From the NCBI GenBank assembly GCA_943736015.1, contig OX031061.1:11541290-11605289 (forward strand): DNA of 64,000 nucleotides. The letters are read 5' to 3'. Made by a program: the position numbers and the translations under genes. Source of the DNA: Tridacna crocea. Taxonomy: Eukaryota; Mollusca; Bivalvia; Cardiida; Cardiidae. Below are positions 21,975 to 64,000 of this stretch, in pieces (positions within the stretch are counted from its first letter, which is position 1; each line of letters begins with the position of its first letter). The notes below the pieces were generated by a model. It saw only the letters and a program-made list of their open reading frames with translations, was not told where the DNA came from and made no database searches.

Positions 21975-23837
21975 TATTTTTATGGCCTATTTTTTTAATT
22001 CTTCAAATGAAAACAAGATTTTTTTTCATCAGAAAAAGTTTCTGCAACAGCAAACAGTTGCTTCTGAATTCTATTTTTTTGAGCAGCGGTTAAACATAAC
22101 ATTGACTTTTGACACGCACGGTCACAAAAACTGACCCTGGTATGAAAACAGGGAAATGTTCGATTTACCTTTCTTTGATTTGTGCAACAGGTATCAGTTG
22201 CCTCCGAAAGTGTCTAAGTTGATTTTACGATTTCATGCGCAGCACGTAACCGTCTCATATGGGTGAGATAGTCATCGCAACCGAATCAATGGCCCTAGTG
22301 AGAGAAAACGAAAAAAGAAAAATCCCTATATTTGACTTGACAAACAGGTGTTGTCTGCTATGAAATGTCCCATAAGTCGATTTTTTTCATGTTTTCGCAG
22401 ATACGTAACTGGCACCTACGAGGCGGTAGTCAGCGTAAATGGGTTTGTCGTCACGGCATAAAGAGATTGGAGGAAAAAAAAAAATAGAAATTTAGTTCCC
22501 TATATTTGACTTGAGAAACAGGTGTCGTCTGCTATGAAATGTCCCGTAAGTCGATTTTTCATGTTTTCGCAGATACGTAACCGGCACCCAGGAGACGGTA
22601 GTCAACGTAAATGGGTTTGTTGTCACGTACGATATATAGAGATTGGAGAAAAAAAAAAAAAATAAATAAAAGATTCAGCTCTCTTTGTTTGACTTATGCA
22701 ACAGGAAGCAGTTGCTACTGAAAGAGTCTTCAAGTCTTTTTTTAGCCACTTGTCACATCATTTTCTGGTGTTCTCGCATGTGCGTAACTGGCATGTATGA
22801 AACGGTAGTCAATGTAACTGGGTTTCTTGTTGCGGTTTGAAGATATTAGAAAAATTATGCTTCAATTCCTTGCTACTGAAAGAGTTTTCAGTCTTTTTTT
22901 AGCCACTTGTCACATTGTTTTCTGTGCTTTTCGCATGTGCGTAACTGGCACGTATGAGACGGTAAGCAACGTAACTGGGTTTCTTGTCGTGGTTTGAAGC
23001 GATTAGAAAAAATTACATTTCAGTTCCCTTTGTTTGATTTATGCAATAGGAAACAATTGCTACAGAAAGAGTTTCCAGTCTCTTTTTTAGCAACTTGTCA
23101 CATTAATTTCTGTGTGTTTTTTTTACACTGTACATTGATCATTTTGGCTTCTATGAATTTGATGTGGCCCGAGTCAGAAAATCCAATTAAAGGGTAAAGG
23201 GCGGGGGTGGGGGATCAAGGGTTTACTTTAAGGGAAGTAACTCTTGCAAGGGGCTTGAAAAGACCAAAACAAGGTCTTCTGCCACCTTGTTTTCTTGAAA
23301 TTTGGCCCTTTTTCAGTGAAATCTGGCATATGTGGATGGTGCATGCCCGGCAGTTTGCCAAGGACTGCACAGAAGCCTTTAAAAAAGACTTTAAATCCAC
23401 TTTTATGCCGTTTTTTGTTCACTGTGATTGGATCGATATATAAGGGCGCCATTTTGAAGCCCTCTGATTGGCTGACTGGGCCCATTTTGATTTCTCAAAG
23501 CCTTTCTGACTGCAAGACCGGGCCCATTTTGAATTTCTCACAGCCTCTCTGATTGGCTGTTGGCACCCATTCTCATTTCCTAAAAGCTTCTGTGATTGGC
23601 TGATTTCACAGAGGGATGAGATTTGATTGGATGATGGGGGGGGGGAGTATATGTTTATCCTTATTGACCCATTACCATACAATGACGCCTTTTTTTAACA
23701 CACATTAAAGAGAAGGCATTGGAAAATAATCTGAGAAAAGGAGACAATGCAGGTTACCAGCATTTTCTCCTTTTCCCACAATGTTTTCTACCCTATGAAA
23801 GAAAATTTTGATTATTAGTTATTCTTACATCTTACTG
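21975..23837. repeat. Repeat unit 13 (long, 1863 bp)
   Basis: Complete long unit, GACAAAC form, G-run of 10, private C-to-A at 22126. Confidence 0.95.
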
Positions 23838-25697
23838 TATTTTTATGGCCTATTTTTTTAATTCTTCAAATGAAAACAAGATTTTTTTTCATCAGAAAAA
23901 GTTTCTGCAACAGCAAACAGTTGCTTCTGAATTCTATTTTTTTGAGCAGCGGTTAAACATAACATTGACTTTTGACACGCACGGTCACCAAAACTGACCC
24001 TGGTATGAAAACAGGGAAATGTTCGATTTACCTTTCTTTGATTTGTGCAACAGGTATCAGTTGCCTCCGAAAGTGTCTAAGTTGATTTTACGATTTCATG
24101 CGCAGCACGTAACCGTCTCATATGGGTGAGATAGTCATCGCAACCGAATCAATGGCCCTAGTGAGAGAAAACGAAAAAAGAAAAATCCCTATATTTGACT
24201 TGACAAACAGGTGTTGTCTGCTATGAAATGTCCCATAAGTCGATTTTTTTCATGTTTTCGCAGATACGTAACTGGCACCTACGAGGCGGTAGTCAGCGTA
24301 AATGGGTTTGTCGTCACGGCATAAAGAGATTGGAGGAAAAAAAAAAATAGAAATTTAGTTCCCTATATTTGACTTGAGAAACAGGTGTCGTCTGCTATGA
24401 AATGTCCCGTAAGTCGATTTTTCATGTTTTCGCAGATACGTAACCGGCACCCAGGAGACGGTAGTCAACGTAAATGGGTTTGTTGTCACGTACGATATAT
24501 AGAGATTGGAGAAAAAAAAAAAAAATAAATAAAAGATTCAGCTCTCTTTGTTTGACTTATGCAACAGGAAGCAGTTGCTACTGAAAGAGTCTTCAAGTCT
24601 TTTTTTAGCCACTTGTCACATCATTTTCTGGTGTTCTCGCATGTGCGTAACTGGCATGTATGAAACGGTAGTCAATGTAACTGGGTTTCTTGTTGCGGTT
24701 TGAAGATATTAGAAAAATTATGCTTCAATTCCTTGCTACTGAAAGAGTTTTCAGTCTTTTTTTAGCCACTTGTCACATTGTTTTCTGTGCTTTTCGCATG
24801 TGCGTAACTGGCACGTATGAGACGGTAAGCAACGTAACTGGGTTTCTTGTCGTGGTTTGAAGCGATTAGAAAAAATTACATTTCAGTTCCCTTTGTTTGA
24901 TTTATGCAATAGGAAACAATTGCTACAGAAAGAGTTTCCAGTCTCTTTTTTAGCAACTTGTCACATTAATTTCTGTGTGTTTTTTTTACACTGTACATTG
25001 ATCATTTTGGCTTCTATGAATTTGATGTGGCCCGAGTCAGAAAATCCAATTAAAGGGTAAAGGGCGGGGGTGGGGGATCAAGGGTTTACTTTAAGGGAAG
25101 TAACTCTTGCAAGGGGCTTGAAAAGACCAAAACAAGGTCTTCTGCCACCTTGTTTTCTTGAAATTTGGCCCTTTTTCAGTGAAATCTGGCATATGTGGAT
25201 GGTGCATGCCCGGCAGTTTGCCAAGGACTGCACAGAAGCCTTTAAAAAAGACTTTAAATCCACTTTTATGCCGTTTTTTGTTCACTGTGATTGGATCGAT
25301 ATATAAGGGCGCCATTTTGAAGCCCTCTGATTGGCTGACTGGGCCCATTTTGATTTCTCAAAGCCTTTCTGACTGCAAGACCGGGCCCATTTTGAATTTC
25401 TCACAGCCTCTCTGATTGGCTGTTGGCACCCATTCTCATTTCCTAAAAGCTTCTGTGATTGGCTGATTTCACAGAGGGATGAGATTTGATTGGATGATGG
25501 GGGGGGGAGTATATGTTTATCCTTATTGACCCATTACCATACAATGACGCCTTTTTTTAACACACATTAAAGAGAAGGCATTGGAAAATAATCTGAGAAA
25601 AGGAGACAATGCAGGTTACCAGCATTTTCTCCTTTTCCCACAATGTTTTCTACCCTATGAAAGAAAATTTTGATTATTAGTTATTCTTACATCTTAC
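23838..25697. repeat. Repeat unit 14 (long, 1860 bp)
   Basis: Complete long unit, GACAAAC form, G-run of 9. Its 3' end runs into the 6-bp linker deletion at the junction with unit 15. Confidence 0.95.
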
Positions 25698-27555
25698 TTT
25701 ATGGCCTATTTTTTTAATTCTTCAAATGAAAACAAGATTTTTTTTCATCAGAAAAAGTTTCTGCAACAGCAAACAGTTGCTTCTGAATTCTATTTTTTTT
25801 AACAGCGGTTAAACATAACATTGACTTTTGACACGCACGGTCACCAAAACTGACCCTGGTATGAAAACAGGGAAATGTTCGATTTACCTTTCTTTGATTT
25901 GTGCAACAGGTATCAGTTGCCTCCGAAAGTGTCTAAGTTGATTTTACGATTTCATGCGCAGCACGTAACCGTCTCATATGGGTGAGATAGTCATCGCAAC
26001 CGAATCAATGGCCCTAGTGAGAGAAAACGAAAAAAGAAAAATCCCTATATTTGACTTGAGAAACAGGTGTTGTCTGCTATGAAATGTCCCATAAGTCGAT
26101 TTTTTTCATGTTTTCGCAGATACGTAACTGGCACCTACGAGGCGGTAGTCAGCGTAAATGGGTTTGTCGTCACGGCATAAAGAGATTGGAGGAAAAAAAA
26201 AAATAGAAATTTAGTTCCCTATATTTGACTTGAGAAACAGGTGTCGTCTGCTATGAAATGTCCCGTAAGTCGATTTTTCATGTTTTCGCAGATACGTAAC
26301 CGGCACCCAGGAGACGGTAGTCAACGTAAATGGGTTTGTTGTCACGTACGATATATAGAGATTGGAGAAAAAAAAAAAAAATAAATAAAAGATTCAGCTC
26401 TCTTTGTTTGACTTATGCAACAGGAAGCAGTTGCTACTGAAAGAGTCTTCAAGTCTTATTTTAGCCACTTGTCACATCATTTTCTGGTGTTCTCGCATGT
26501 GCGTAACTGGCATGTATGAAACGGTAGTCAATGTAACTGGGTTTCTTGTTGCGGTTTGAAGATATTAGAAAAATTATGCTTCAATTCCTTGCTACTGAAA
26601 GAGTTTTCAGTCTTTTTTTAGCCACTTGTCACATTGTTTTCTGTGCTTTTCGCATGTGCGTAACTGGCACGTATGAGACGGTAAGCAACGTAACTGGGTT
26701 TCTTGTCGTGGTTTGAAGCGATTAGAAAAAATTACATTTCAGTTCCCTTTGTTTGATTTATGCAATAGGAAACAATTGCTACAGAAAGAGTTTCCAGTCT
26801 CTTTTTTAGCAACTTGTCACATTAATTTCTGTGTGTTTTTTTTACACTGTACATTGATCATTTTGGCTTCTATGAATTTGATGTGGCCCGAGTCAGAAAA
26901 TCCAATTAAAGGGTAAAGGGCGGGGGTGGGGGATCAAGGGTTTACTTTAAGGGAAGTAACTCTTGCAAGGGGCTTGAAAAGACCAAAACAAGGTCTTCTG
27001 CCACCTTGTTTTCTTGAAATTTGGCCCTTTTTCAGTGAAATCTGGCATATGTGGATGGTGCATGCCCGGCAGTTTGCCAAGGACTGCACAGAAGCCTTTA
27101 AAAAAGACTTTAAATCCACTTTTATGCCGTTTTTTGTTCACTGTGATTGGATCGATATATAAGGACGCCATTTTGAAGCCCTCTGATTGGCTGACTGGGC
27201 CCATTTTGATTTCTCAAAGCCTTTCTGACTGCAAGACCGGGCCCATTTTGAATTTCTCACAGCCTCTCTGATTGGCTGTTGGCACCCATTCTCATTTCCT
27301 AAAAGCTTCTGTGATTGGCTGATTTCACAGAGGGATGAGATTTGATTGGATGATGGGGGGGGGAGTATATGTTTATCCTTATTGACCCATTACCATACAA
27401 TGACGCCTTTTTTTAACACACATTAAAGAGAAGGCATTGGAAAATAATCTGAGAAAAGGAGACAATGCAGGTTACCAGCATTTTCTCCTTTTCCCACAAT
27501 GTTTTCTACCCTATGAAAGAAAATTTTGATTATTAGTTATTCTTACATCTTACTG
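25698..27555. repeat. Repeat unit 15 (long, 1858 bp)
   Basis: Starts with a 6-bp deletion in the linker, also seen in unit 28. Two changes at 25800 and 25802 alter the end of the T-run. A at 26458 and A at 27165 match unit 9. G-run of 9. Confidence 0.95.
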
Positions 27556-29418
27556 TATTTTTATGGCCTATTTTTTTAATTCTTCAAATGAAAACAAGAT
27601 TTTTTTTCATCAGAAAAAGTTTCTGCAACAGCAAACAGTTGCTTCTGAATTCTATTTTTTTGAGCAGCGGTTAAACATAACATTGACTTTTGACACGCAC
27701 GGTCACCAAAACTGACCCTGGTATGAAAACAGGGAAATGTTCGATTTACCTTTCTTTGATTTGTGCAACAGGTATCAGTTGCCTCCGAAAGTGTCTAAGT
27801 TGATTTTACGATTTCATGCGCAGCACGTAACCGTCTCATATGGGTGAGATAGTCATCGCAACCGAATCAATGGCCCTAGTGAGAGAAAACGAAAAAAGAA
27901 AAATCCCTATATTTGACTTGAGAAACAGGTGTTGTCTGCTATGAAATGTCCCATAAGTCGATTTTTTTCATGTTTTCGCAGATACGTAACTGGCACCTAC
28001 GAGGCGGTAGTCAGCGTAAATGGGTTTGTCGTCACGGCATAAAGAGATTGGAGGAAAAAAAAAAATAGAAATTTAGTTCCCTATATTTGACTTGAGAAAC
28101 AGGTGTCGTCTGCTATGAAATGTCCCGTAAGTCGATTTTTCATGTTTTCGCAGATACGTAACCGGCACCCAGGAGACGGTAGTCAACGTAAATGGGTTTG
28201 TTGTCACGTACGATATATAGAGATTGGAGAAAAAAAAAAAAATAAATAAAAGATTCAGCTCTCTTTGTTTGACTTATGCAACAGGAAGCAGTTGCTACTG
28301 AAAGAGTCTTCAAGTCTTTTTTTAGCCACTTGTCACATCATTTTCTGGTGTTCTCGCATGTGCGTAACTGGCATGTATGAAACGGTAGTCAATGTAACTG
28401 GGTTTCTTGTTGCGGTTTGAAGATATTAGAAAAATTATGCTTCAATTCCTTGCTACTGAAAGAGTTTTCAGTCTTTTTTTAGCCACTTGTCACATTGTTT
28501 TCTGTGCTTTTCGCATGTGCGTAACTGGCACGTATGAGACGGTAAGCAACGTAACTGGGTTTCTTGTCGTGGTTTGAAGCGATTAGAAAAAATTACATTT
28601 CAGTTCCCTTTGTTTGATTTATGCAATAGGAAACAATTGCTACAGAAAGAGTTTCCAGTCTCTTTTTTAGCAACTTGTCACATTAATTTCTGTGTGTTTT
28701 TTTTACACTGTACATTGATCATTTTGGCTTCTATGAATTTGATGTGGCCCGAGTCAGAAAATCCAATTAAAGGGTAAAGGGCGGGGGTGGGGGATCAAGG
28801 GTTTACTTTAAGGGAAGTAACTCTTGCAAGGGGCTTGAAAAGACCAAAACAAGGTCTTCTGCCACCTTGTTTTCTTGAAATTTGGCCCTTTTTCAGTGAA
28901 ATCTGGCATATGTGGATGGTGCATGCCCGGCAGTTTGCCAAGGACTGCACAGAAGCCTTTAAAAAAGACTTTAAATCCACTTTTATGCCGTTTTTTGTTC
29001 ACTGTGATTGGATCGATATATAAGGGCGCCATTTTGAAGCCCTCTGATTGGCTGACTGGGCCCATTTTGATTTCTCAAAGCCTTTCTGACTGCAAGACCG
29101 GGCCCATTTTGAATTTCTCACAGCCTCTCTGATTGGCTGTTGGCACCCATTCTCATTTCCTAAAAGCTTCTGTGATTGGCTGATTTCACAGAGGGATGAG
29201 ATTTGATTGGATGATGGGGGGGGGGGAGTATATGTTTATCCTTATTGACCCATTACCATACAATGACGCCTTTTTTTAACACACATTAAAGAGAAGGCAT
29301 TGGAAAATAATCTGAGAAAAGGAGACAATGCAGGTTACCAGCATTTTCTCCTTTTCCCACAATGTTTTCTACCCTATGAAAGAAAATTTTGATTATTAGT
29401 TATTCTTACATCTTACTG
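27556..29418. repeat. Repeat unit 16 (long, 1863 bp)
   Basis: Complete long unit near consensus, G-run of 11, matching unit 10. Confidence 0.95.
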
Positions 29419-31281
29419 TATTTTTATGGCCTATTTTTTTAATTCTTCAAATGAAAACAAGATTTTTTTTCATCAGAAAAAGTTTCTGCAACAGCAAACA
29501 GTTGCTTCTGAATTCTATTTTTTTGAGCAGCGGTTAAACATAACATTGACTTTTGACACGCACGGTCACCAAAACTGACCCTGGTATGAAAACAGGGAAA
29601 TGTTCGATTTACCTTTCTTTGATTTGTGCAACAGGTATCAGTTGCCTCCGAAAGTGTCTAAGTTGATTTTACGATTTCATGCGCAGCACGTAACCGTCTC
29701 ATATGGGTGAGATAGTCATCGCAACCGAATCAATGGCCCTAGTGAGAGAAAACGAAAAAAGAAAAATCCCTATATTTGACTTGACAAACAGGTGTTGTCT
29801 GCTATGAAATGTCCCATAAGTCGATTTTTTTCATGTTTTCGCAGATACGTAACTGGCACCTACGAGGCGGTAGTCAGCGTAAATGGGTTTGTCGTCACGG
29901 CATAAAGAGATTGGAGGAAAAAAAAAAATAGAAATTTAGTTCCCTATATTTGACTTGAGAAACAGGTGTCGTCTGCTATGAAATGTCCCGTAAGTCGATT
30001 TTTCATGTTTTCGCAGATACGTAACCGGCACCCAGGAGACGGTAGTCAACGTAAATGGGTTTGTTGTCACGTACGATATATAGAGATTGGAGAAAAAAAA
30101 AATAAATAAATAAAAGATTCAGCTCTCTTTGTTTGACTTATGCAACAGGAAGCAGTTGCTACTGAAAGAGTCTTCAAGTCTTTTGTTAGCCACTTGTCAC
30201 ATCATTTTCTGGTGTTCTCGCATGTGCGTAACTGGCATGTATGAAACGGTAGTCAATGTAACTGGGTTTCTTGTTGCGGTTTGAAGATATTAGAAAAATT
30301 ATGCTTCAATTCCTTGCTACTGAAAGAGTTTTCAGTCTTTTTTTAGCCACTTGTCACATTGTTTTCTGTGCTTTTCGCATGTGCGTAACTGGCACGTATG
30401 AGACGGTAAGCAACGTAACTGGGTTTCTTGTCGTGGTTTGAAGCGATTAGAAAAAATTACATTTCAGTTCCCTTTGTTTGATTTATGCAATAGGAAACAA
30501 TTGCTACAGAAAGAGTTTCCAGTCTCTTTTTTAGCAACTTGTCACATTAATTTCTGTGTGTTTTTTTTACACTGTACATTGATCATTTTGGCTTTTATGA
30601 ATTTGATGTGGCCCGAGTCAGAAAATCCAATTAAAGGGTAAAGGGCGGGGGTGGGGGATCAAGGGTTTACTTTAAGGGAAGTAACTCTTGCAAGGGGCTT
30701 GAAAAGACCAAAACAAGGTCTTCTGCCACCTTGTTTTCTTGAAATTTGGCCCTTTTTCAGTGAAATCTGGCATATGTGGATGGTGCATGCCCGGCAGTTT
30801 GCCAAGGACTGCACAGAAGCCTTTAAAAAAGACTTTAAATCCACTTTTATGCCGTTTTTTGTTCACTGTGATTGGATCGATATATAAGGGCGCCATTTTG
30901 AAGCCCTCTGATTGGCTGACTGGGCCCATTTTGATTTCTCAAAGCCTTTCTGACTGCAAGACCGGGCCCATTTTGAATTTCTCACAGCCTCTCTGATTGG
31001 CTGTTGGCACCCATTCTCATTTCCTAAAAGCTTCTGTGATTGGCTGATTTCACAGAGGGATGAGATTTGATTGGATGATGGGGGGGGGGAGTATATGTTT
31101 ATCCTTATTGACCCATTACCATACAATGACGCCTTTTTTTAACACACATTAAAGAGAAGGCATTGGAAAATAATCTGAGAAAAGGAGACAATGCAGGTTA
31201 CCAGCATTTTCTCCTTTTCCCACAATGTTTTCTACCCTATGAAAGAAAATTTTGATTATTAGTTATTCTTACATCTTACTG
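29419..31281. repeat. Repeat unit 17 (long, 1863 bp)
   Basis: Complete long unit, G-run of 10. G at 30185 and T at 30595 match unit 11, but it has the GACAAAC form near 29783 where unit 11 has GAGAAAC, so the duplicate is mosaic. Confidence 0.95.
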
Positions 31282-33145
31282 TATTTTTATGGCCTATTTT
31301 TTTAATTCTTCAAATGAAAACAAGATTTCTTTTCATCAGAAAAAGTTTCTGCAACAGCAAACAGTTGCTTCTGAATTCTATTTTTTTGAGCAGCGGTTAA
31401 ACATAACATTGACTTTTGACACGCACGGTCACCAAAACTGACCCTGGTATGAAAACAGGGAAATGTTCGATTTACCTTTCTTTGATTTGTGCAACAGGTA
31501 TCAGTTGCCTCCGAAAGTGTCTAAGTTGATTTTACGATTTCATGCGCAGCACGTAACCGTCTCATATGGGTGAGATAGTCATCGCAACCGAATCAATGGC
31601 CCTAGTGAGAGAAAACGAAAAAAGAAAAATCCCTATATTTGACTTGACAAACAGGTGTTGTCTGCTATGAAATGTCCCATAAGTCGATTTTTTTCATGTT
31701 TTCGCAGATACGTAACTGGCACCTACGAGGCGGTAGTCAGCGTAAATGGGTTTGTCGTCACAGCATAAAGAGATTGGAGGAAAAAAAAAAATAGAAATTT
31801 AGTTCCCTATATTTGACTTGAGAAACAGGTGTCGTCTGCTATGAAATGTCCCGTAAGTCGATTTTTCATGTTTTCGCAGATACGTAACCGGCACCCAGGA
31901 GACGGTAGTCAACGTAAATGGGTTTGTTGTCACGTACGATATATAGAGATTGGAGAAAAAAAAATAAATAAATAAAAGATTCAGCTCTCTTTGTTTGACT
32001 TATGCAACAGGAAGCAGTTGCTACTGAAAGAGTCTTCAAGTCTTTTTTTAGCCACTTGTCACATCATTTTCTGGTGTTCTCGCATGTGCGTAACTGGCAT
32101 GTATGAAACGGTAGTCAATGTAACTGGGTTTCTTGTTGCGGTTTGAAGATATTAGAAAAATTATGCTTCAATTCCTTGCTACTGAAAGAGTTTTCAGTCT
32201 TTTTTTAGCCACTTGTCACATTGTTTTCTGTGCTTTTCGCATGTGCGAAACTGGCACGTATGAGACGGTAAGCAACGTAACTGGGTTTCTTGTCGTGGTT
32301 TGAAGCGATTAGAAAAAATTACATTTCAGTTCCCTTTGTTTGATTTATGCAATAGGAAACAATTGCTACAGAAAGAGTTTCCAGTCTCTTTTTTAGCAAC
32401 TTGTCACATTAATTTCTGTGTGTTTTTTTTACACTGTACATTGATCATTTTGGCTTCTATGAATTTGATGTGGCCCGAGTCAGAAAATCCAATTAAAGGG
32501 TAAAGGGCGGGGGTGGGGGATCAAGGGTTTACTTTAAGGGAAGTAACTCTTGCAAGGGGCTTGAAAAGACCAAAACAAGGTCTTCTGCCACCTTGTTTTC
32601 TTGAAATTTGGCCCTTTTTCAGTGAAATCTGGCATATGTGGATGGTGCATGCCCGGCAGTTTGCCAAGGACTGCACAGAAGCCTTTAAAAAAGACTTTAA
32701 ATCCACTTTTATGCCGTTTTTTGTTCACTGTGATTGGATCGATATATAAGGGCGCCATTTTGAAGCCCTCTGATTGGCTGACTGGGCCCATTTTGATTTC
32801 TCAAAGCCTTTCTGACTGCAAGACCGGGCCCATTTTGAATTTCTCACAGCCTCTCTGATTGGCTGTTGGCACCCATTCTCATTTCCTAAAAGCTTCTGTG
32901 ATTGGCTGATTTCACAGAGGGATGAGATTTGATTGGATGATGGGGGGGGGGGGAGTATATGTTTATCCTTATTGACCCATTACCATACAATGACGCCTTT
33001 TTTTAACACACATTAAAGAGAAGGCATTGGAAAATAATCTGAGAAAAGGAGACAATGCAGGTTACCAGCATTTTCTCCTTTTCCCACAATGTTTTCTACC
33101 CTATGAAAGAAAATTTTGATTATTAGTTATTCTTACATCTTACTG
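31282..33145. repeat. Repeat unit 18 (long, 1864 bp)
   Basis: Complete long unit. C at 31329, A at 31762 and A at 32248 match unit 12, yet the G-run is 12 against 8 in unit 12. It is the last unit with the GACAAAC form. Confidence 0.95.
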
Positions 33146-35007
33146 TATTTTTATGGCCTATTTTTTTAATTCTTCAAATGAAAACAAGATTTTTTTTCAT
33201 CAGAAAAAGTTTCTGCAACAGCAAACAGTTGCTTCTGAATTCTATTTTTTTGAGCAGCGGTTAAACATAACATTGACTTTTGACATGCACGGTCACCAAA
33301 ACTGACCCTGGTATGAAAACAGGGAAATGTTCGATTTACCTTTCTTTGATTTGTGCAACAGGTATCAGTTGCCTCCGAAAGTGTCTAAGTTGATTTTACG
33401 ATTTCATGCGCAGCACGTAACCGTCTCATATGGGTGAGATAGTCATCGCAACCGAATCAATGGCCCTAGTGAGAGAAAACGAAAAAAGAAAAATCCCTAT
33501 ATTTGACTTGAGAAACAGGTGTTGTCTGCTATGAAATGTCCCATAAGTCGATTTTTTTCATGTTTTCGCAGATACGTAACTGGCACCTACGAGGCGGTAG
33601 TCAGCGTAAATGGGTTTGTCGTCACGGCATAAAGAGATTGGAGGAAAAAAAAAAATAGAAATTTAGTTCCCTATATTTGACTTGAGAAACAGGTGTCGTC
33701 TGCTATGAAATGTCCCGTAAGTCGATTTTTCATGTTTTCGCAGATACGTAACCGGCACCCAGGAGACGGTAGTCAACGTAAATGGGTTTGTTGTCACGTA
33801 CGATATATAGAGATTGGAGAAAAAAAAAAAAATAAATAAAAGATTCAGCTCTCTTTGTTTGACTTATGCAACAGGAAGCAGTTGCTACTGAAAGAGTCTT
33901 CAAGTCTTTTTTTAGCCACTTGTCACATCATTTTCTGGTGTTCTCGCATGTGCGTAACTGGCATGTATGAAACGGTAGTCAATGTAACTGGGTTTCTTGT
34001 TGCGGTTTGAAGATATTAGAAAAATTATGCTTCAATTCCTTGCTACTGAAAGAGTTTTCAGTCTTTTTTTAGCCACTTGTCACATTGTTTTCTGTGCTTT
34101 TCGCATGTGCGTAACTGGCACGTATGAGACGGTAAGCAACGTAACTGGGTTTCTTGTCGTGGTTTGAAGCGATTAGAAAAAATTACATTTCAGTTCCCTT
34201 TGTTTGATTTATGCAATAGGAAACAATTGCTACAGAAAGAGTTTCCAGTCTCTTTTTTAGCAACTTGTCACATTAATTTCTGTGTGTTTTTTTTACACTG
34301 TACATTGATCATTTTGGCTTCTATGAATTTGATGTGGCCCGAGTCAGAAAATCCAATTAAAGGGTAAAGGGCGGGGGTGGGGGATCAAGGGTTTACTTTA
34401 AGGGAAGTAACTCTTGCAAGGGGCTTGAAAAGACCAAAACAAGGTCTTCTGCCACCTTGTTTTCTTGAAATTTGGCCCTTTTTCAGTGAAATCTGGCATA
34501 TGTGGATGGTGCATGCCCGGCAGTTTGCCAAGGACTGCACAGAAGCCTTTAAAAAAGACTTTAAATCCACTTTTATGCCGTTTTTTGTTCACTGTGATTG
34601 GATCGATATATAAGGGCGCCATTTTGAAGCCCTCTGATTGGCTGACTGGGCCCATTTTGATTTCTCAAAGCCTTTCTGACTGCAAGACCGGGCCCATTTT
34701 GAATTTCTCACAGCCTCTCTGATTGGCTGTTGGCACCCATTCTCATTTCCTAAAAGCTTCTGTGATTGGCTGATTTCACAGAGGGATGAGATTTGATTGG
34801 ATGATGGGGGGGGGGAGTATATGTTTATCCTTATTGACCCATTACCATACAATGACGCCTTTTTTTAACACACATTAAAGAGAAGGCATTGGAAAATAAT
34901 CTGAGAAAAGGAGACAATGCAGGTTACCAGCATTTTCTCCTTTTCCCACAATGTTTTCTACCCTATGAAAGAAAATTTTGATTATTAGTTATTCTTACAT
35001 CTTACTG
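33146..35007. repeat. Repeat unit 19 (long, 1862 bp)
   Basis: Complete long unit, G-run of 10, C-to-T at CpG 33286. Confidence 0.95.
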
Positions 35008-36869: not shown

Positions 36870-38731
36870 TATTTTTATGGCCTATTTTTTTAATTCTTCA
36901 AATGAAAACAAGATTTTTTTTCATCAGAAAAAGTTTCTGCAACAGCAAACAGTTGCTTCTGAATTCTATTTTTTTGAGCAGCGGTTAAACATAACATTGA
37001 CTTTTGACACGCACGGTCACCAAAACTGACCCTGGTATGAAAACAGGGAAATGTTCGATTTACCTTTCTTTGATTTGTGCAACAGGTATCAGTTGCCTCC
37101 GAAAGTGTCTAAGTTGATTTTACGATTTCATGCGCAGCACGTAACCGTCTCATATGGGTGAGATAGTCATCGCAACCGAATCAATGGCCCTAGTGAGAGA
37201 AAACGAAAAAAGAAAAATCCCTATATTTGACTTGAGAAACAGGTGTTGTCTGCTATGAAATGTCCCATAAGTCGATTTTTTTCATGTTTTCGCAGATACG
37301 TAACTGGCACCTACGAGGCGGTAGTCAGCGTAAATGGGTTTGTCGTCACGGCATAAAGAGATTGGAGGAAAAAAAAAATAGAAATTTAGTTCCCTATATT
37401 TGACTTGAGAAACAGGTGTCGTCTGCTATGAAATGTCCCGTAAGTCGATTTTTCATGTTTTCGCAGATACGTAACCGGCACCCAGGAGACGGTAGTCAAC
37501 GTAAATGGGTTTGTTGTCACGTACGATATATAGAGATTGGAGAAAAAAAAAAAAAATAAATAAAAGATTCAGCTCTCTTTGTTTGACTTATGCAACAGGA
37601 AGCAGTTGCTACTGAAAGAGTCTTCAAGTCTTTTTTTAGCCACTTGTCACATCATTTTCTGGTGTTCTCGCATGTGCGTAACTGGCATGTATGAAACGGT
37701 AGTCAATGTAACTGGGTTTCTTGTTGCGGTTTGAAGATATTAGAAAAATTATGCTTCAATTCCTTGCTACTGAAAGAGTTTTCAGTCTTTTTTTAGCCAC
37801 TTGTCACATTGTTTTCTGTGCTTTTCGCATGTGCGTAACTGGCACGTATGAGACGGTAATTAACGTAACTGGGTTTCTTGTCGTGGTTTGAAGCGATTAG
37901 AAAAAATTACATTTCAGTTCCCTTTGTTTGATTTATGCAATAGGAAACAATTGCTACAGAAAGAGTTTCCAGTCTCTTTTTTAGCAACTTGTCACATTAA
38001 TTTCTGTGTGTTTTTTTTACACTGTACATTGATCATTTTGGCTTCTATGAATTTGATGTGGCCCGAGTCAGAAAATCCAATTAAAGGGTAAAGGGCGGGG
38101 GTGGGGGATCAAGGGTTTACTTTAAGGGAAGTAACTCTTGCAAGGGGCTTGAAAAGACCAAAACAAGGTCTTCTGCCACCTTGTTTTCTTGAAATTTGGC
38201 CCTTTTTCAGTGAAATCTGGCATATGTGGATGGTGCATGCCCGGCAGTTTGCCAAGGACTGCACAGAAGCCTTTAAAAAAGACTTTAAATCCACTTTTAT
38301 GCCGTTTTTTGTTCACTGTGATTGGATCGATATATAAGGGCGCCATTTTGAAGCCCTCTGATTGGCTGACTGGGCCCATTTTGATTTCTCAAAGCCTTTC
38401 TGACTGCAAGACCGGGCCCATTTTGAATTTCTCACAGCCTCTCTGATTGGCTGTTGGCACCCATTCTCATTTCCTAAAAGCTTCTGTGATTGGCTGATTT
38501 CACAGAGGGATGAGATTTGATTGGATGATGGGGGGGGGGAGTATATGTTTATCCTTATTGACCCATTACCATACAATGACGCCTTTTTTTAACACACATT
38601 AAAGAGAAGGCATTGGAAAATAATCTGAGAAAAGGAGACAATGCAGGTTACCAGCATTTTCTCCTTTTCCCACAATGTTTTCTACCCTATGAAAGAAAAT
38701 TTTGATTATTAGTTATTCTTACATCTTACTG
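36870..38731. repeat. Repeat unit 21 (long, 1862 bp)
   Basis: Complete long unit, G-run of 10. GC-to-TT double change at 37860-37861, shared only with unit 25. It precedes a short unit but lacks the linked T, the only such exception. Confidence 0.95.
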
Positions 38732-43934: not shown

Positions 43935-45796
43935 TATTTTTATGGCCTATTTTTTTAATTCTTCAAATGAAAACAAGATTTTTTTTCATCAGAAAAAGTT
44001 TCTGCAACAGCAAACAGTTGCTTCTGAATTCTATTTTTTTGAGCAGCGGTTAAACATAACATTGACTTTTGACACGCACGGTCACCAAAACTGACCCTGG
44101 TATGAAAACAGGGAAATGTTCGATTTACCTTTCTTTGATTTGTGCAACAGGTATCAGTTGCCTCCGAAAGTGTCTAAGTTGATTTTACGATTTCATGCGC
44201 AGCACGTAACCGTCTCATATGGGTGAGATAGTCATCGCAACCGAATCAATGGCCCTAGTGAGAGAAAACGAAAAAAGAAAAATCCCTATATTTGACTTGA
44301 GAAACAGGTGTTGTCTGCTATGAAATGTCCCATAAGTCGATTTTTTTCATGTTTTCGCAGATACGTAACTGGCACCTACGAGGCGGTAGTCAGCGTAAAT
44401 GGGTTTGTCGTCACGGCATAAAGAGATTGGAGGAAAAAAAAAAATAGAAATTTAGTTCCCTATATTTGACTTGAGAAACAGGTGTCGTCTGCTATGAAAT
44501 GTCCCGTAAGTCGATTTTTCATGTTTTCGCAGATACGTAACCGGCACCCAGGAGACGGTAGTCAACGTAAATGGGTTTGTTGTCACGTACGATATATAGA
44601 GATTGGAGAAAAAAAAAAAAAATAAATAAAAGATTCAGCTCTCTTTGTTTGACTTATGCAACAGGAAGCAGTTGCTACTGAAAGAGTCTTCAAGTCTTTT
44701 TTTAGCCACTTGTCACATCATTTTCTGGTGTTCTCGCATGTGCGTAACTGGCATGTATGAAACGGTAGTCAATGTAACTGGGTTTCTTGTTGCGGTTTGA
44801 AGATATTAGAAAAATTATGCTTCAATTCCTTGCTACTGAAAGAGTTTTCAGTCTTTTTTTAGCCACTTGTCACATTGTTTTCTGTGCTTTTCGCATGTGC
44901 GTAACTGGCACGTATGAGACGGTAATTAACGTAACTGGGTTTCTTGTCGTGGTTTGAAGCGATTAGAAAAAATTACATTTCAGTTCCCTTTGTTTGATTT
45001 ATGCAATAGGAAACAATTGCTACAGAAAGAGTTTCCAGTCTCTTTTTTAGCAACTTGTCACATTAATTTCTGTGTGTTTTTTTTACACTGTACATTGATC
45101 ATTTTGGCTTCTATGAATTTGATGTGGCCCGAGTCAGAAAATCCAATTAAAGGGTAAAGGGCGGGGGTGGGGGATCAAGGGTTTACTTTAAGGGAAGTAA
45201 CTCTTGCAAGGGGCTTGAAAAGACCAAAACAAGGTCTTCTGCCACCTTGTTTTCTTGAAATTTGGCCCTTTTTCAGTGAAATCTGGCATATGTGGATGGT
45301 GCATGCCCGGCAGTTTGCCAAGGACTGCACAGAAGCCTTTAAAAAAGACTTTAAATCCACTTTTATGCCGTTTTTTGTTCACTGTGATTGGATCGATATA
45401 TAAGGGCGCCATTTTGAAGCCCTCTGATTGGCTGACTGGGCCCATTTTGATTTCTCAAAGCCTTTCTGACTGCAAGACCGGGCCCATTTTGAATTTCTCA
45501 CAGCCTCTCTGATTGGCTGTTGGCACCCATTCTCATTTCCTAAAAGCTTCTGTGATTGGCTGATTTCACAGAGGGATGAGATTTGATTGGATGATGGGGG
45601 GGGGAGTATATGTTTATCCTTATTGACCCATTACCATACAATGACGCCTTTTTTTAACACACATTAAAGAGAAGGCATTGGAAAATAATCTGAGAAAAGG
45701 AGACAATGCAGGTTACCAGCATTTTCTCCTTTTCCCACAATGTTTTCTACCCTATGAAAGAAAATTTTGATTATTAGTTATTCTTACATCTTACTG
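43935..45796. repeat. Repeat unit 25 (long, 1862 bp)
   Basis: Complete long unit, G-run of 9, with the TT double change at 44926-44927 otherwise found only in unit 21. Confidence 0.95.
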
Positions 45797-51252: not shown

Positions 51253-53114
51253 TATTTTTATGGCCTATTTTTTTAATTCTTCAAATGAAAACAAGATTTT
51301 TTTTCATCAGAAAAAGTTTCTGCAACAGCAAACAGTTGCTTCTGAATTCTATTTTTTTGAGCAGCGGTTAAACATAACATTGACTTTTGACACGCACGGT
51401 CACCAAAACTGACCCTGGTATGAAAACAGGGAAATGTTCAATTTACCTTTCTTTGATTTGTGCAACAGGTATCAGTTGCCTCCGAAAGTGTCTAAGTTGA
51501 TTTTACGATTTCATGCGCAGCACGTAACCGTCTCATATGGGTGAGATAGTCATCGCAACCGAATCAATGGCCCTAGTGAGAGAAAACGAAAAAAGAAAAA
51601 TCCCTATATTTGACTTGAGAAACAAGTGTTGTCTGCTATGAAATGTCCCATAAGTCGATTTTTTTCATGTTTTCGCAGATACGTAACTGGCACCTACGAG
51701 GCGGTAGTCAGCGTAAATGGGTTTGTCGTCACGGCATAAAGAGATTGGAGGAAAAAAAAAAATAGAAATTTAGTTCCCTATATTTGACTTGAGAAACAGG
51801 TGTCGTCTGCTATGAAATGTCCCGTAAGTCGATTTTTCATGTTTTCGCAGATACGTAACCGGCACCCAGGAGATGGTAGTCAACGTAAATGGGTTTGTTG
51901 TCACGTACGATATATAGAGATTGGAGAAAAAAAAAAAAATAAATAAAAGATTCAGCTCTCTTTGTTTGACTTATGCAACAGGAAGCAGTTGCTACTGAAA
52001 GAGTCTTCAAGTCTTTTTTTAGCCACTTGTCACATCATTTTCTGGTGTTCTCGCATGTGCGTAACTGGCATGTATGAAACGGTAGTCAATGTAACTGGGT
52101 TTCTTGTTGCGGTTTGAAGATATTAGAAAAATTATGCTTCAATTCCTTGCTACTGAAAGAGTTTTCAGTCTTTTTTTAGCCACTTGTCACATTGTTTTCT
52201 GTGCTTTTCGCATGTGCGTAACTGGCACGTATGAGACGGTAAGCAACGTAACTGGGTTTCTTGTCGTGGTTTGAAGCGATTAGAAAAAATTACATTTCAG
52301 TTCCCTTTGTTTGATTTATGCAATAGGAAACAATTGCTACAGAAAGAGTTTCCAGTCTCTTTTTTAGCAACTTGTCACATTAATTTCTGTGTGTTTTTTT
52401 TTACACTGTACATTGATCATTTTGGCTTCTATGAATTTGATGTGGCCCGAGTCAGAAAATCCAATTAAAGGGTAAAGGGCGGGGGTGGGGGATCAAGGGT
52501 TTACTTTAAGGGAAGTAACTCTTGCAAGGGGCTTGAAAAGACCAAAACAAGGTCTTCTGCCACCTTGTTTTCTTGAAATTTGGCCCTTTTTCAGTGAAAT
52601 CTGGCATATGTGGATGGTGCATGCCCGGCAGTTTGCCAAGGACTGCACAGAAGCCTTTAAAAAAGACTTTAAATCCACTTTCATGCCGTTTTTTGTTCAC
52701 TGTGATTGGATCGATATATAAGGGCGCCATTTTGAAGCCCTCTAATTGGCTGACTGGGCCCATTTTGATTTCTCAAAGCCTTTCTGACTGCAAGACCGGG
52801 CCCATTTTGAATTTCTCACAGCCTCTCTGATTGGCTGTTGGCACCCATTCTCATTTCCTAAAAGCTTCTGTGATTGGCTGATTTCACAGAGGGATGAGAT
52901 TTGATTGGATGATGGGGGGGGGGAGTATATGTTTATCCTTATTGACCCATTACCATACAATGACGCCTTTTTTTAACACACATTAAAGAGAAGGCATTGG
53001 AAAATATCTGAGAAAAGGAGACAATGCAGGTTACCAGCATTTTCTCCTTTTCCCACAATGTTTTCTACCCTATGAAAGAAAATTTTGATTATTAGTTATT
53101 CTTACATCTTACTG
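51253..53114. repeat. Repeat unit 29 (long, 1862 bp); most diverged copy
   Basis: Carries the most scattered private changes: CpG losses at 51440 and 51874, G-to-A at 51625, T-to-C at 52682, G-to-A at 52744, one extra T in the T-run near 52395, and a one-base loss near 53005 in the left arm of the large hairpin. G-run of 10. Confidence 0.95.
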
Positions 53115-56837: not shown

Positions 56838-58699
56838 TATTTTTATGGCCTATTTTTTTAATTCTTCAAATGAAAACAAGATTTTTTTTCATCAGAAAAA
56901 GTTTCTGCAACAGCAAACAGTTGCTTCTGAATTCTATTTTTTTGAGCAGCGGTTAAACATAACATTGACTTTTGACACGCACGGTCACCAAAACTGACCC
57001 TGGTATGAAAACAGGGAAATGTTCGATTTACCTTTCTTTGATTTGTGCAACAGGTATCAGTTGCCTCCGAAAGTGTCTAAGTTGATTTTACGATTTCATG
57101 CGCAGCACGTAACCGTCTCATTTGGGTGAGATAGTCATCGCAACCGAATCAATGGCCCTAGTGAGAGAAAACGAAAAAAGAAAAATCCCTATATTTGACT
57201 TGAGAAACAGGTGTTGTCTGCTATGAAATGTCCCATAAGTCGATTTTTTTCATGTTTTCGCAGATACGTAACGGGCACCTACGAGGCGGTAGTCAGCGTA
57301 AATGGGTTTGTCGTCACGGCATAAAGAGATTGGAGGAAAAAAAAAAATAGAAATTTAGTTCCCTATATTTGACTTGAGAAACAGGTGTCGTCTGCTATGA
57401 AATGTCCCGTAAGTCGATTTTTCATGTTTTCGCAGATACGTAACCGGCACCCAGGAGACGGTAGTCAACGTAAATGGGTTTGTTGTCACGTACGATATAT
57501 AGAGATTGGAGAAAAAAAAAAAAAATAAATAAAAGATTCAGCTCTCTTTGTTTGACTTATGCAACAGGAAGCAGTTGCTACTGAAAGAGTCTTCAAGTCT
57601 TTTTTTAGCCACTTGTCACATCATTTTCTGGTGTTCTCGCATGTGCGTAACTGGCATGTATGAAACGGTAGTCAATGTAACTGGGTTTCTTGTTGCGGTT
57701 TGAAGATATTAGAAAAATTATGCTTCAATTCCTTGCTACTGAAAGAGTTTTCAGTCTTTTTTTAGCCACTTGTCACATTGTTTTCTGTGCTTTTCGCATG
57801 TGCGTAACTGGCACGTATGAGACGGTAAGCAACGTAACTGGGTTTCTTGTCGTGGTTTGAAGCGATTAGAAAAAATTACATTTCAGTTCCCTTTGTTTGA
57901 TTTATGCAATAGGAAACAATTGCTACAGAAAGAGTTTCCAGTCTCTTTTTTAGCAACTTGTCACATTAATTTCTGTGTGTTTTTTTTACACTGTACATTG
58001 ATCATTTTGGCTTCTATGAATTTGATGTGGCCCGAGTCAGAAAATCCAATTAAAGGGTAAAGGGCGGGGGTGGGGGATCAAGGGTTTACTTTAAGGGAAG
58101 TAACTCTTGCAAGGGGCTTGAAAAGACCAAAACAAGGTCTTCTGCCACCTTGTTTTCTTGAAATTTGGCCCTTTTTCAGTGAAATCTGGCATATGTGGAT
58201 GGTGCATGCCCGGCAGTTTGCCAAGGACTGCACAGAAGCCTTTAAAAAAGACTTTAAATCCACTTTTATGCCGTTTTTTGTTCACTGTGATTGGATCGAT
58301 ATATAAGGGCGCCATTTTGAAGCCCTCTGATTGGCTGACTGGGCCCATTTTGATTTCTCAAAGCCTTTCTGACTGCAAGACCGGGCCCATTTTGAATTTC
58401 TCACAGCCTCTCTGATTGGCTGTTGGCACCCATTCTCATTTCCTAAAAGCTTCTGTGATTGGCTGATTTCACAGAGGGATGAGATTTGATTGGATGATGG
58501 GGGGGGGAGTATATGTTTATCCTTATTGACCCATTACCATACAATGACGCCTTTTTTTAACACACATTAAAGAGAAGGCATTGGAAAATAATCTGAGAAA
58601 AGGAGACAATGCAGGTTACCAGCATTTTCTCCTTTTCCCACAATGTTTTCTACCCTATGAAAGAAAATTTTGATTATTAGTTATTCTTACATCTTACTG
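56838..58699. repeat. Repeat unit 32 (long, 1862 bp)
   Basis: Complete long unit, G-run of 9, A-to-T at 57122 and T-to-G at 57273; the second alters the TAACTG core of subrepeat c. Confidence 0.95.
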
Positions 58700-60562
58700 T
58701 ATTTTTATGGCCTATTTTTTTAATTCTTCAAATGAAAACAAGATTTTTTTTCATCAGAAAAAGTTTCTGCAACAGCAAACAGTTGCTTCTGAATTCTATT
58801 TTTTTGAGCAGCGGTTAAACATAACATTGACTTTTGACACGCACGGTCACCAAAACTGACCCTGGTATGAAAACAGGGAAATGTTCGATTTACCTTTCTT
58901 TGATTTGTGCAACAGGTATCAGTTGCCTCCGAAAGTGTCTAAGTTGATTTTACGATTTCATGCGCAGCACGTAACCGTCTCATATGGGTGAGATAGTCAT
59001 CGCAACCGAATCAATGGCCCTAGTGAGAGAAAACGAAAAAAGAAAAATCCCTATATTTGACTTGAGAAACAGGTGTTGTCTGCTATGAAATGTCCCATAA
59101 GTCGATTTTTTTCATGTTTTCGCAGATACGTAACTGGCACCTACGAGGCGGTAGTCAGCGTAAATGGGTTTGTCGTCACGGCATAAAGAGATTGGAGGAA
59201 AAAAAAAAATAGAAATTTAGTTCCCTATATTTGACTTGAGAAACAGGTGTCGTCTGCTATGAAATGTCCCGTAAGTCGATTTTTCATGTTTTCGCAGATA
59301 CGTAACCGGCACCCAGGAGACGGTAGTCAACGTAAATGGGTTTGTTGTCACGTACAATATATAGAGATTGGAGAAAAAAAAAATAAATAAATAAAAGATT
59401 CAGCTCTCTTTGTTTGACTTATGCAACAGGAAGCAGTTGCTACTGAAAGAGTCTTCAAGTCTTTTTTTAGCCACTTGTCACATCATTTTCTGGTGTTCTC
59501 GCATGTGCGTAACTGGCATGTATGAAACGGTAGTCAATGTAACTGGGTTTCTTGTTGCGGTTTGAAGATATTAGAAAAATTATGCTTCAATTCCTTGCTA
59601 CTGAAAGAGTTTTCAGTCTTTTTTTAGCCACTTGTCACATTGTTTTCTGTGCTTTTCGCATGTGCGTAACTGGCACGTATGAGACGGTAAGCAACGTAAC
59701 TGGGTTTCTTGTCGTGGTTTGAAGCGATTAGAAAAAATTACATTTCAGTTCCCTTTGTTTGATTTATGCAATAGGAAACAATTGCTACAGAAAGAGTTTC
59801 CAGTCTCTTTTTTAGCAACTTGTCACATTAATTTCTGTGTGTTTTTTTTACACTGTACATTGATCATTTTGGCTTCTATGAATTTGATGTGGCCCGAGTC
59901 AGAAAATCCAATTAAAGGGTAAAGGGCGGGGGTGGGGGATCAAGGGTTTACTTTAAGGGAAGTAACTCTTGCAAGGGGCTTGAAAAGACCAAAACAAGGT
60001 CTTCTGCCACCTTGTTTTCTTGAAATTTGGCCCTTTTTCAGTGAAATCTGGCATATGTGGATGGTGCATGCCCGGCAGTTTGCCAAGGACTGCACAGAAG
60101 CCTTTAAAAAAGACTTTAAATCCACTTTTATGCCGTTTTTTGTTCACTGTGATTGGATCGATATATAAGGGCGCCATTTTGAAGCCCTCTGATTGGCTGA
60201 CTGGGCCCATTTTGATTTCTCAAAGCCTTTCTGACTGCAAGACCGGGCCCATTTTGAATTTCTTACAGCCTCTCTGATTGGCTGTTGGCACCCATTCTCA
60301 TTTCCTAAAAGCTTCTGTGATTGGCTGATTTCACAGAGGGATGAGATTTGATTGGATGATGGGGGGGGGGAGTATATGTTTATCCTTATTGACCCATTAC
60401 CATACAATGACGCCTTTTTTTAACACACATTAAAGAGAAGGCATTGGAAAACATTGTGAGAAAAGGAGACAATGCAGGTTACCAGCATTTTCTCCTTTTC
60501 CCACAATGTTTTCTACCCTATGAAAGAAAATTTTGATTATTAGTTATTCTTACATCTTACTG
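58700..60562. repeat. Repeat unit 33 (long, 1863 bp); template-switch variant
   Basis: G-to-A at CpG 59356, C-to-T at 60264, G-run of 10. Three clustered changes at 60452, 60454 and 60456 all make the left hairpin arm match the right arm. Confidence 0.95.
60447..60513. repeat. Improved near-palindrome in unit 33 (27 of 29 paired)
   Basis: This is the unit 33 copy of the 67-bp near-palindrome. Changes at 60452 (T to C), 60454 (A to T) and 60456 (C to G) replace AATAATCTG with AACATTGTG, exactly complementary to CACAATGTT of the right arm. Mismatches fall from five to two. Confidence 0.9.
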
Positions 60563-62425
60563 TATTTTTATGGCCTATTTTTTTAATTCTTCAAATGAAA
60601 ACAAGATTTTTTTTCATCAGAAAAAGTTTCTGCAACAGCAAACAGTTGTTTCTGAATTCTATTTTTTTGAGCAGCGGTTAAACATAACATTGACTTTTGA
60701 CACGCACGGTCACCAAAACTGACCCTGGTATGAAAACAGGGAAATGTTCGATTTACCTTTCTTTGATTTGTGCAACAGGTATCAGTTGCCTCCGAAAGTG
60801 TCTAAGTTGATTTTACGATTTCATGCGCAGCACGTAACCGTCTCATATGGGTGAGATAGTCATCGCAACCGAATCAATGGCCCTAGTGAGAGAAAACGAA
60901 AAAAGAAAAATCCCTATATTTGACTTGAGAAACAGGTGTTGTCTGCTATGAAATGTCCCATAAGTCGATTTTTTTCATGTTTTCGCAGATACGTAACTGG
61001 CACCTACGAGGCGGTAGTCAGCGTAAATGGGTTTGTCGTCACGGCATAAAGAGATTGGAGGAAAAAAAAAAATAGAAATTTAGTTCCCTATATTTGACTT
61101 GAGAAACAGGTGTCGTCTGCTATGAAATGTCCCGTAAGTCGATTTTTCATGTTTTCGCAGATACGTAACCGGCACCCAGGAGACGGTAGTCAACGTAAAT
61201 GGGTTTGTTGTCACATATGATATATAGAGATTGGAGAAAAAAAAAATAAATAAATAAAAGATTCAGCTCTCTTTGTTTGACTTATGCAACAGGAAGCAGT
61301 TGCTACTGAAAGAGTCTTCAAGTCTTTTTTTAGCCTTTTGTCACATCATTTTCTGGTGTTCTCGCATGTGCGTAACTGGCATGTATGAAACGGTAGTCAA
61401 TGTAACTGGGTTTCTTGTTGCGGTTTGAAGATATTAGAAAAATTATGCTTCAATTCCTTGCTACTGAAAGAGTTTTCAGTCTTTTTTTAGCCACTTGTCA
61501 CATTGTTTTCTGTGCTTTTCGCATGTGCGTAACTGGCACGTATGAGACGGTAAGCAACGTAACTGGGTTTCTTGTCGTGGTTTGAAGCGATTAGAAAAAA
61601 TTACATTTCAGTTCCCTTTGTTTGATTTATGCAATAGGAAACAATTGCTACAGAAAGAGTTTCCAGTCTCTTTTTTAGCAACTTGTCACATTAATTTCTG
61701 TGTGTTTTTTTTACACTGTACATTGATCATTTTGGCTTCTATGAATTTGATGTGGCCCGAGTCAGAAAATCCAATTAAAGGGTAAAGGGCGGGGGTGGGG
61801 GATCAAGGGTTTACTTTAAGGGAAGTAACTCTTGCAAGGGGCTTGAAAAGACCAAAACAAGGTCTTCTGCCACCTTGTTTTCTTGAAATTTGGCCCTTTT
61901 TCAGTGAAATCTGGCATATGTGGATGGTGCATGCCCGGCAGTTTGCCAAGGACTGCACAGAAGCCTTTAAAAAAGACTTTAAATCCACTTTTATGCCGTT
62001 TTTTGTTCACTGTGATTGGATCGATATATAAGGGCGCCATTTTGAAGCCCTCTGATTGGCTGACTGGGCCCATTTTGATTTCTCAAAGCCTTTCTGACTG
62101 CAAGACCGGGCCCATTTTGAATTTCTCACAGCCTCTCTGATTGGCTGTTGGCACCCATTCTCATTTCCTAAAAGCTTCTGTGATTGGCTGATTTCACAGA
62201 GGGATGAGATTTGATTGGATGATGGGGGGGGGGAGTATATGTTTATCCTTATTGACCCATTACCATACAATGACGCCTTTTTTTAACACACATTAAAGAG
62301 AAGGCATTGGAAAATAATCTGAGAAAAGGAGACAATGCAGGTTACCAGCATTTTCTCCTTTTCCCACAATGTTTTCTACCCTATGAAAGAAAATTTTGAT
62401 TATTAGTTATTCTTACATCTTACTG
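60563..62425. repeat. Repeat unit 34 (long, 1863 bp)
   Basis: C-to-T at 60649, CpG losses at 61215 and 61218, adjacent AC-to-TT at 61336-61337, G-run of 10, A-tract with the extra AAAT. Confidence 0.95.
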
Positions 62426-64000
62426 TATTTTTATGGCCTATTTTTTTAATTCTTCAAATGAAAACAAGATTTTTTTTCATCAGAAAAAGTTTCTGCAACA
62501 GCAAACAGTTGCTTCTGAATTCTATTTTTTTGAGCAGCGGTTAAACATAACATTGACTTTTGACACGCACGGTCACCAAAACTGACCCTGGTATGAAAAC
62601 AGGGAAATGTTCGATTTACCTTTCTTTGATTTGTGCAACAGGTATCAGTTGCCTCCGAAAGTGTCTAAGTTGATTTTACGATTTCATGCGCAGCACGTAA
62701 CCGTCTCATATGGGTGAGATAGTCATCGCAACCGAATCAATGGCCCTAGTGAGAGAAAACGAAAAAAGAAAAATCCCTATATTTGACTTGAGAAACAGGT
62801 GTTGTCTGCTATGAAATGTCCCATAAGTCAATTTTTTTCATGTTTTCGCAGATACGTAACTGGCACCTACGAGGCGGTAGTCAGCGTAAATGGGTTTGTC
62901 GTCACGGCATAAAGAGATTGGAGGAAAAAAAAAAATAGAAATTTAGTTCCCTATATTTGACTTGAGAAACAGGTGTCGTCTGCTATGAAATGTCCCGTAA
63001 GTCGATTTTTCATGTTTTCGCAGATACGTAACCGGCACCCAGGAGACGGTAGTCAACGTAAATGGGTTTGTTGTCACGTATGATATATAGAGATTGGAGA
63101 AAAAAAAAATAAATAAATAAAAGATTCAGCTCTCTTTGTTTGACTTATGCAACAGGAAGCAGTTGCTACTGAAAGAGTCTTCAAGTCTTTTTTTAGCCAC
63201 TTGTCACATCATTTTCTGGTGTTCTCGCATGTGCGTAACTGGCATGTATGAAACGGTAGTCAATGTAACTGGGTTTCTTGTTGCGGTTTGAAGATATTAG
63301 AAAAATTATGCTTCAATTCCTTGCTACTGAAAGAGTTTTCAGTCTTTTTTTAGCCACTTGTCACATTGTTTTCTGTGCTTTTCGCATGTGCGTAACTGGC
63401 ACGTATGAGACGGTAAGCAACGTAACTGGGTTTCTTGTCATGGTTTGAAGCGATTAGAAAAAATTACATTTCAGTTCCCTTTGTTTGATTTATGCAATAG
63501 GAAACAATTGCTACAGAAAGAGTTTCCAGTCTCTTTTTTAGCAACTTGTCACATTAATTTCTGTGTGTTTTTTTTACACTGTACATTGATCATTTTGGCT
63601 TCTATGAATTTGATGTGGCCCGAGTCAGAAAATCCAATTAAAGGGTAAAGGGCGGGGGTGGGGGATCAAGGGTTTACTTTAAGGGAAGTAACTCTTGCAA
63701 GGGGCTTGAAAAGACCAAAACAAGGTCTTCTGCCACCTTGTTTTCTTGAAATTTGGCCCTTTTTCAGTGAAATCTGGCATATGTGGATGGTGCATGCCCG
63801 GCAGTTTGCCAAGGACTGCACAGAAGCCTTTAAAAAAGACTTTAAATCCACTTTTATGCCGTTTTTTGTTCACTGTGATTGGATCGATATATAAGGGCGC
63901 CATTTTGAAGCCCTCTGATTGGCTGACTGGGCCCATTTTGATTTCTCAAAGCCTTTCTGACTGCAAGACCGGGCCCATTTTGAATTTCTCACAGCCTCTC
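62426..64000. repeat. Repeat unit 35 (partial, 1575 bp, cut by window edge)
   Basis: Truncated by the window end inside the CCAAT block. CpG losses at 62830, 63081 and 63440; the last is shared with unit 20. Confidence 0.95.

Follow-up and report, generated by a model that had tools for sequence, protein, structure and literature searches.

How has one copy of a near-palindrome that is repeated throughout a long tandem array come to carry three base changes within five bases, all of which bring one of its arms closer to the complement of the other? The window, which is the whole analysed stretch of 64,000 nucleotides, is one tandem array of units of about 1.86 kb and gives the impression of a eukaryotic satellite or another long tandem repeat. 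It contains 34 copies of the near-palindrome, with two 33-nt arms and a 1-nt gap, and no longer inverted repeat was detected in the unit when arms up to 200 nt apart were considered. For the comparison, the units were cut at a fixed point ahead of each near-palindrome copy, the first unit (1-882) being partial; the variant counts omit the window end past about position 63313 or alignment column 1870, and homopolymer indels are not scored in them as events. Full units have 1855 to 1865 bases, seven units without a certain stretch of 126 bases have 1733 to 1737, and the consensus unit has 1863 bases, with a longest stop-free stretch of 97 codons. The aligned units differ in 85 substitution cells over 51 columns, and adjacent units differ from each other by about 4 substitutions on average. 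The coordinates of the features are compiled in Table 1.

Table 1. Positions of unit 33, of its near-palindrome with recipient and donor tracts, and of a deletion that recurs in the array
Feature	Position	Strand	Remark
Unit 33 (U33)	59581..61443	+	1863 bases, as cut
Near-palindrome of unit 33	60447..60513	.	arms 60447-60479 and 60481-60513, 1-nt gap
Three private substitutions = shortest possible copied tract, 5 nt	60452..60456	+	
Longest possible copied tract, 12 nt	60447..60458	+	identical to the reverse complement of 60502-60513
Donor = outer 12 nt of right arm	60502..60513	+	unchanged in 34/34 copies
126-base deletion sites	7575, 9312, 11047, 38852, 40587, 42322, 47782		

Apart from the near-palindrome, the unit has an internal structure of its own. 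About half of each unit consists of diverged subrepeats of approximately 157 to 207 bases that have a common core CGTAACTGGCAC...GTAACTGGG (60911-61246 and 59400-59840), and as these subrepeats fill about half of the unit, the long unit is a higher-order repeat. Ahead of the hairpin, each unit has a TATATAAGG motif together with tandem repeats of about 43 bases that contain GATTGGCTG (60160-60329); the motif and GATTGGCTG, which reads CCAAT on the other strand, are elements that we take to be promoter-like, as predicted from the sequence alone.

In unit 33, the left arm of the near-palindrome starts with GAAAACATTGTG in place of the consensus GAAAATAATCTG, the differences being T60452C, A60454T and C60456G. 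The right-arm partners by position are G60508, A60506 and C60504, and all three changes are to the respective complement. The original prediction had named these three substitutions, had seen them in no other unit, and had regarded the hairpin as perfected by them. Positions and bases are correct, and the triple is indeed private to unit 33: on the plus strand of the whole window, the consensus 12-mer is found 32 times and the converted 12-mer once, and the six 12-mers in which one or two of the three positions are converted are found 0 times each. The hairpin, however, has been improved rather than perfected, as three of its six mismatches are left (60459, 60470 and 60476). The outer 12 bp are now fully paired, and there are Watson-Crick pairs at 30 of the 33 positions after the event versus 27 of 33 in the consensus, which amounts to an arm complementarity of 91% in unit 33 versus 82% in both adjacent units (58584-58650 and 62310-62376). 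The predicted single-strand energy changes from -13.8 kcal/mol in a consensus copy (58584-58650) to -24.9 kcal/mol in unit 33 on the plus strand, and from -17.4 to -28.3 kcal/mol on the minus strand. The right arm is identical in all 34 copies, and the sole left-arm change seen in these copies beyond unit 33 is a 1-nt deletion in U29. There, one A is missing from the outer part of the left arm of the hairpin (52999-53065; GAAAATATCTG), and the conversion of unit 33 affects this very stretch. With these two changes only, a role of the hairpin as a mutational hot spot has little support.

It has to be asked whether the three substitutions could have been acquired one by one. When changes up to five columns apart in one unit are merged, 33 private substitution events are counted in about 63 kb, and 5.4e-5 cases of three independent private hits within five bases are then expected in the array, in agreement with the original view that independent mutation is unlikely. 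An acquisition of the three changes one by one, whether or not a stronger hairpin was selected for, would go along with the fact that the predicted stem is strengthened by all three of them, but such a cluster is hardly expected by chance, neither single nor double intermediates are found among the 34 copies, and the other 33 copies manage without the triple, and this explanation is extremely improbable.

The significance of the match between the triple and the right arm was derived from a simulation of random clusters, in place of a template-switch pair HMM, and the null consisted of 20,000 random triples that had the same spacing but a random position and random bases. An inverted match of at least 12 nt was reached within 100 bases by 4 of these 20,000, and within half a unit by 38 of them. 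In direct orientation, the observed triple matches at best 5 nt within 100 bases and 7 nt within half a unit, and the null reaches these lengths in 2,979 and 4,469 of 20,000 cases, respectively. A direct-repeat donor inside the consensus unit was rejected, since there is no direct copy of more than 7 nt that covers the triple, and also an in-place microinversion was rejected, since TAATC would thereby become GATTA, and not CATTG as observed.

The same approach bears on a further possibility, namely an untemplated multinucleotide mutation, made for example by an error-prone polymerase, that resembles the partner arm by coincidence. Three further multi-base clusters in the array are without an inverted template (GC>TT in U21 and U25, AC>TT in U33, and G.G>T.A in U14), and it follows that untemplated multi-base mutations do occur here; the inverted matches of these clusters have 5 to 8 nt, as are reached by 3,137 to 15,528 of 20,000 random clusters. 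For the triple, such an origin is nevertheless quite improbable, considering that 4 of 20,000 random triples match as well within 100 bases and that the triple sits in the longest inverted repeat detected in the unit with arms up to 200 nt apart. For the U14 cluster, direct matches reach 9 nt within 100 bases (188/20,000) and 11 nt within half a unit (230/20,000), which is not convincing across 16 tests. As to the single changes, none of the 51 distinct ones has an inverted match of at least 9 nt (null fraction 0.014), and one of the 51 has an inverted match of at least 8 nt (null 0.039). As none of the 51 looks like a palindrome correction, there is no recurrence in the window beyond unit 33. 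Template switching as a general source of the variation in the array is unsupported, as the other clusters and the single changes are without a comparable inverted template.

The three other clusters can be described as follows. GC>TT is located at 37860-37861 and at 44926-44927, is common to U21 and U25, and has no local template; GC>TT/AA changes are a signature of polymerase zeta. In U14, a G>T and a G>A change are found two bases apart after a T run (25800-25802). The AC>TT change at 61336-61337, within AGCCACTTGTC, is the second private multi-base change of unit 33, and neither an inverted nor a direct template stands out for it. AC>TT has been described as an ultraviolet-induced change in yeast (PMC10160025).

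Unit 33 has 8 private substitutions, which make up 5 events (60264; 60452/60454/60456; 60649; 61215; 61336-61337), and thereby the highest share of all units, i.e. 5 of the 33 private events. The chance that any unit reaches 5 is about 0.087, and with this P value the idea of a mutation shower in unit 33 was rejected. Since unit 33 has the most private events, a local sequence error or another local cause may be involved, and the unit may be a locally mutable or poorly assembled stretch. An artefact, be it an error of reading, polishing or assembly or a template switch in an amplification prior to sequencing, would be in line with this load of private events and with the difficulty of assembling near-identical units, and fold-back errors can arise in vitro too. 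But a unit with 5 private events is not striking, the usual long-read error differs from three exact substitutions without any indel, and the remaining hairpin including the right arm of unit 33 is consensus, and an artefact is therefore regarded as unlikely. A reading of the hairpin as a recurrent template-switch site, with the event in unit 33 as part of a local mutation burst that also produced AC>TT and three single changes inside 1.1 kb, is rather improbable as well. Break-induced replication in the array might leave such a pattern, and if this reading were true, the dozens of near-identical sites next to each other would make the array a natural recorder of errors in repair synthesis.

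Another aspect is the direction of the change. As judged from one assembled sequence, the triple would most simply be the newer state, with one of the 34 copies converted. Unit 33 has variants in common with its neighbours, namely a T at column 1643, for which U34 is the sole other carrier, and a T at column 1672, which is present also in U32, U34 and six other units, and these common variants favour the triple as derived. At the three other arm mismatches, the consensus base has been kept, and unit 33 is thus no relic of a perfect palindrome. Searches for outgroup copies, made with one exact pattern per collection, found no match in viral_contigs or in genome_contigs, collections that hold viruses and prokaryotes, and a search with one unit against plasmids also gave 0 matches, which says little on a probable eukaryotic repeat.

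The array also has traces of exchange between its units. A block duplication is recognizable within the array (13541-22855 versus 24718-34025), where rare variants are common to U08-U12 and U14-U18, and at this lag of six units the differences fall to 0 to 4 for several pairs. The 126-base deletion has identical ends in all seven units that carry it (U04-U06, U21-U23 and U26, i.e. two runs of three and one single), and the fact that seven units have it in common is a sign of unequal exchange. An identical deletion of 6 bases lies downstream of the hairpin, at a distance of about 80 bases, in the non-adjacent units U14 (25697) and U27 (49395). The triple might have been brought in by unequal exchange or ordinary gene conversion, on a variant unit of another array or chromosome, or it might be an older state that has been kept only here; the block-wise exchange, as evident from the likeness of U08-U12 to U14-U18 and from the 126-base deletion, agrees with this, and the comparison spans this window alone. 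However, a second converted 12-mer in direct orientation was not found in the window, and the variants common to unit 33 and its neighbours as well as the consensus bases at the other three arm mismatches speak against such an origin, which is highly improbable.

It is thus very likely that the triple results from one short-range template switch, i.e. from a quasi-palindrome correction, in which a tract of 5 to 12 nt was copied from the right arm into the left arm. A single switch is the best explanation because an inverted donor is adjacent, the tract is bounded, there are no intermediates in 34 copies, direct copies do not exceed 7 nt, and only 4 of 20,000 random triples do as well within 100 bases. 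The 12-nt tract is flanked by unconverted differences at 60446 and 60459. Most plausibly, the consensus was the older state, and the change was made in a single event during replication or repair.

In DNA synthesis across the near-palindrome, the polymerase would leave its template between 60459 and 60456, would then use 5 to 12 bases from the right arm as its template (within 60502-60513), and would return in or just ahead of the GAAAA that is common to both templates (60447-60451). Arm differences within the tract would thereby be rewritten jointly, and the three outside the tract would stay untouched. If there was such a switch, a fold-back of the nascent minus strand is the likeliest route, with a probability somewhat above even. 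The right arm would in this case be synthesised first, the inner stem would form, and the strand would be extended on its own 5' arm. In the intrastrand model, the nascent strand is the minus strand, because the altered arm must be made last. The inner stem is predicted to fold already before the switch point, with -15.5 kcal/mol for a 55-nt minus-strand intermediate, and -13.8 kcal/mol are predicted for the mirror-image plus-strand intermediate. As the latter is nearly as stable, the stability does not choose the strand. At 60459, A and C are opposed on the plus strand and T and G on the minus strand, and the wobble in the predicted minus-strand fold would fit the minus strand, which is no proof. 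Otherwise, the nascent strand would have switched to the opposite template strand, or to a right arm in the sister or in another unit.

It had originally been proposed that template switching within one strand explains all three changes in one step, and that this implies a folding of the near-palindrome in vivo. A single template switch indeed fits the triple best, but the intrastrand route and the fold in vivo do not follow, because an interstrand jump, or the use of the right arm of another unit, which is identical in 34 of 34 copies, gives the same sequence. If the switch was intrastrand, a fold is required at most momentarily on nascent single-stranded DNA.

The hairpin has also been considered as a known RNA gene, which is not supported, as there is no Rfam family at the gathering score and as the hairpin matches in U33 are weak throughout. 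Rfam matches at the gathering score amount to 0 in the window, the best weak match in unit 33 being mir-9457 with 33.4 bits versus a gathering score of 90, and no tRNA was detected in the scanned stretch (57000-64000).

As is characteristic of quasi-palindrome correction, all three changes are to the partner arm, the donor is unchanged, the tract is bounded, and the match is better than chance. A fully perfect palindrome has not resulted, with three mismatches left, but perfection is taken here as a typical and not as the defining outcome, as a short tract mends what it spans. The near-identity of the units makes the parent sequence nearly certain, and a switch of 5 to 12 nt can therefore be read without any alignment of species. 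Such an array, if used genome-wide, could serve to measure the frequency and the strand of switches, and the one event alone adds an example to a well-described process. Among the articles listed for template switching together with satellites, none is plainly on such an event in a satellite, as judged by titles and the beginnings of abstracts.

Related events are known from several systems. In rad27-delta yeast, quasi-palindrome correction has been reported, one of the cases having arms of 16 bp and a spacer of 1 bp, and the authors prefer a nascent-strand fold-back model (PMC5677150). Like in that case, the substitution cluster matches one arm of an imperfect inverted repeat to the other, but the yeast events were seen arising in mutants and gave perfect palindromes, and here it is one inferred event with three mismatches left (PMC5677150). 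Loss of RNase H2 in yeast has also been associated with such mutations (PMC3820800). In natural strains of Saccharomyces cerevisiae, a homogenization of inverted-repeat arms has been described, and the simulation was exceeded in all 10 cases that had 9-11 bp arms (PMC8604942). There, too, multinucleotide changes are found on one arm, with the yeast arms becoming perfect, but coding genes were compared on a strain tree, and not tandem units of one array (PMC8604942). In great apes, 4017 significant template-switch events have been reported; in the best-placed set, the copied stretch has a median of 12 nt, just 5.5% of the events leave the length as it was, and a cluster has 10 differences in the median (PMC7954356). 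The short reverse-complement copy is like that in unit 33 (median 12 nt versus 5 to 12 nt), but here three bases are changed at the same length, whereas most ape events change the length, and the ape events were called by a pair-HMM threshold and not by a simulation of random clusters (PMC7954356). Template switching can also create or mend RNA stems, and one intrastrand event can mend several pairs (PMC8794818). Like in such RNA stems, several pairs of an existing stem would have been mended in one event, although the hairpin of the array has no support as an RNA gene (PMC8794818). Alongside these systems, the event in unit 33 is a clean, small and ordinary new example of a well-documented process.
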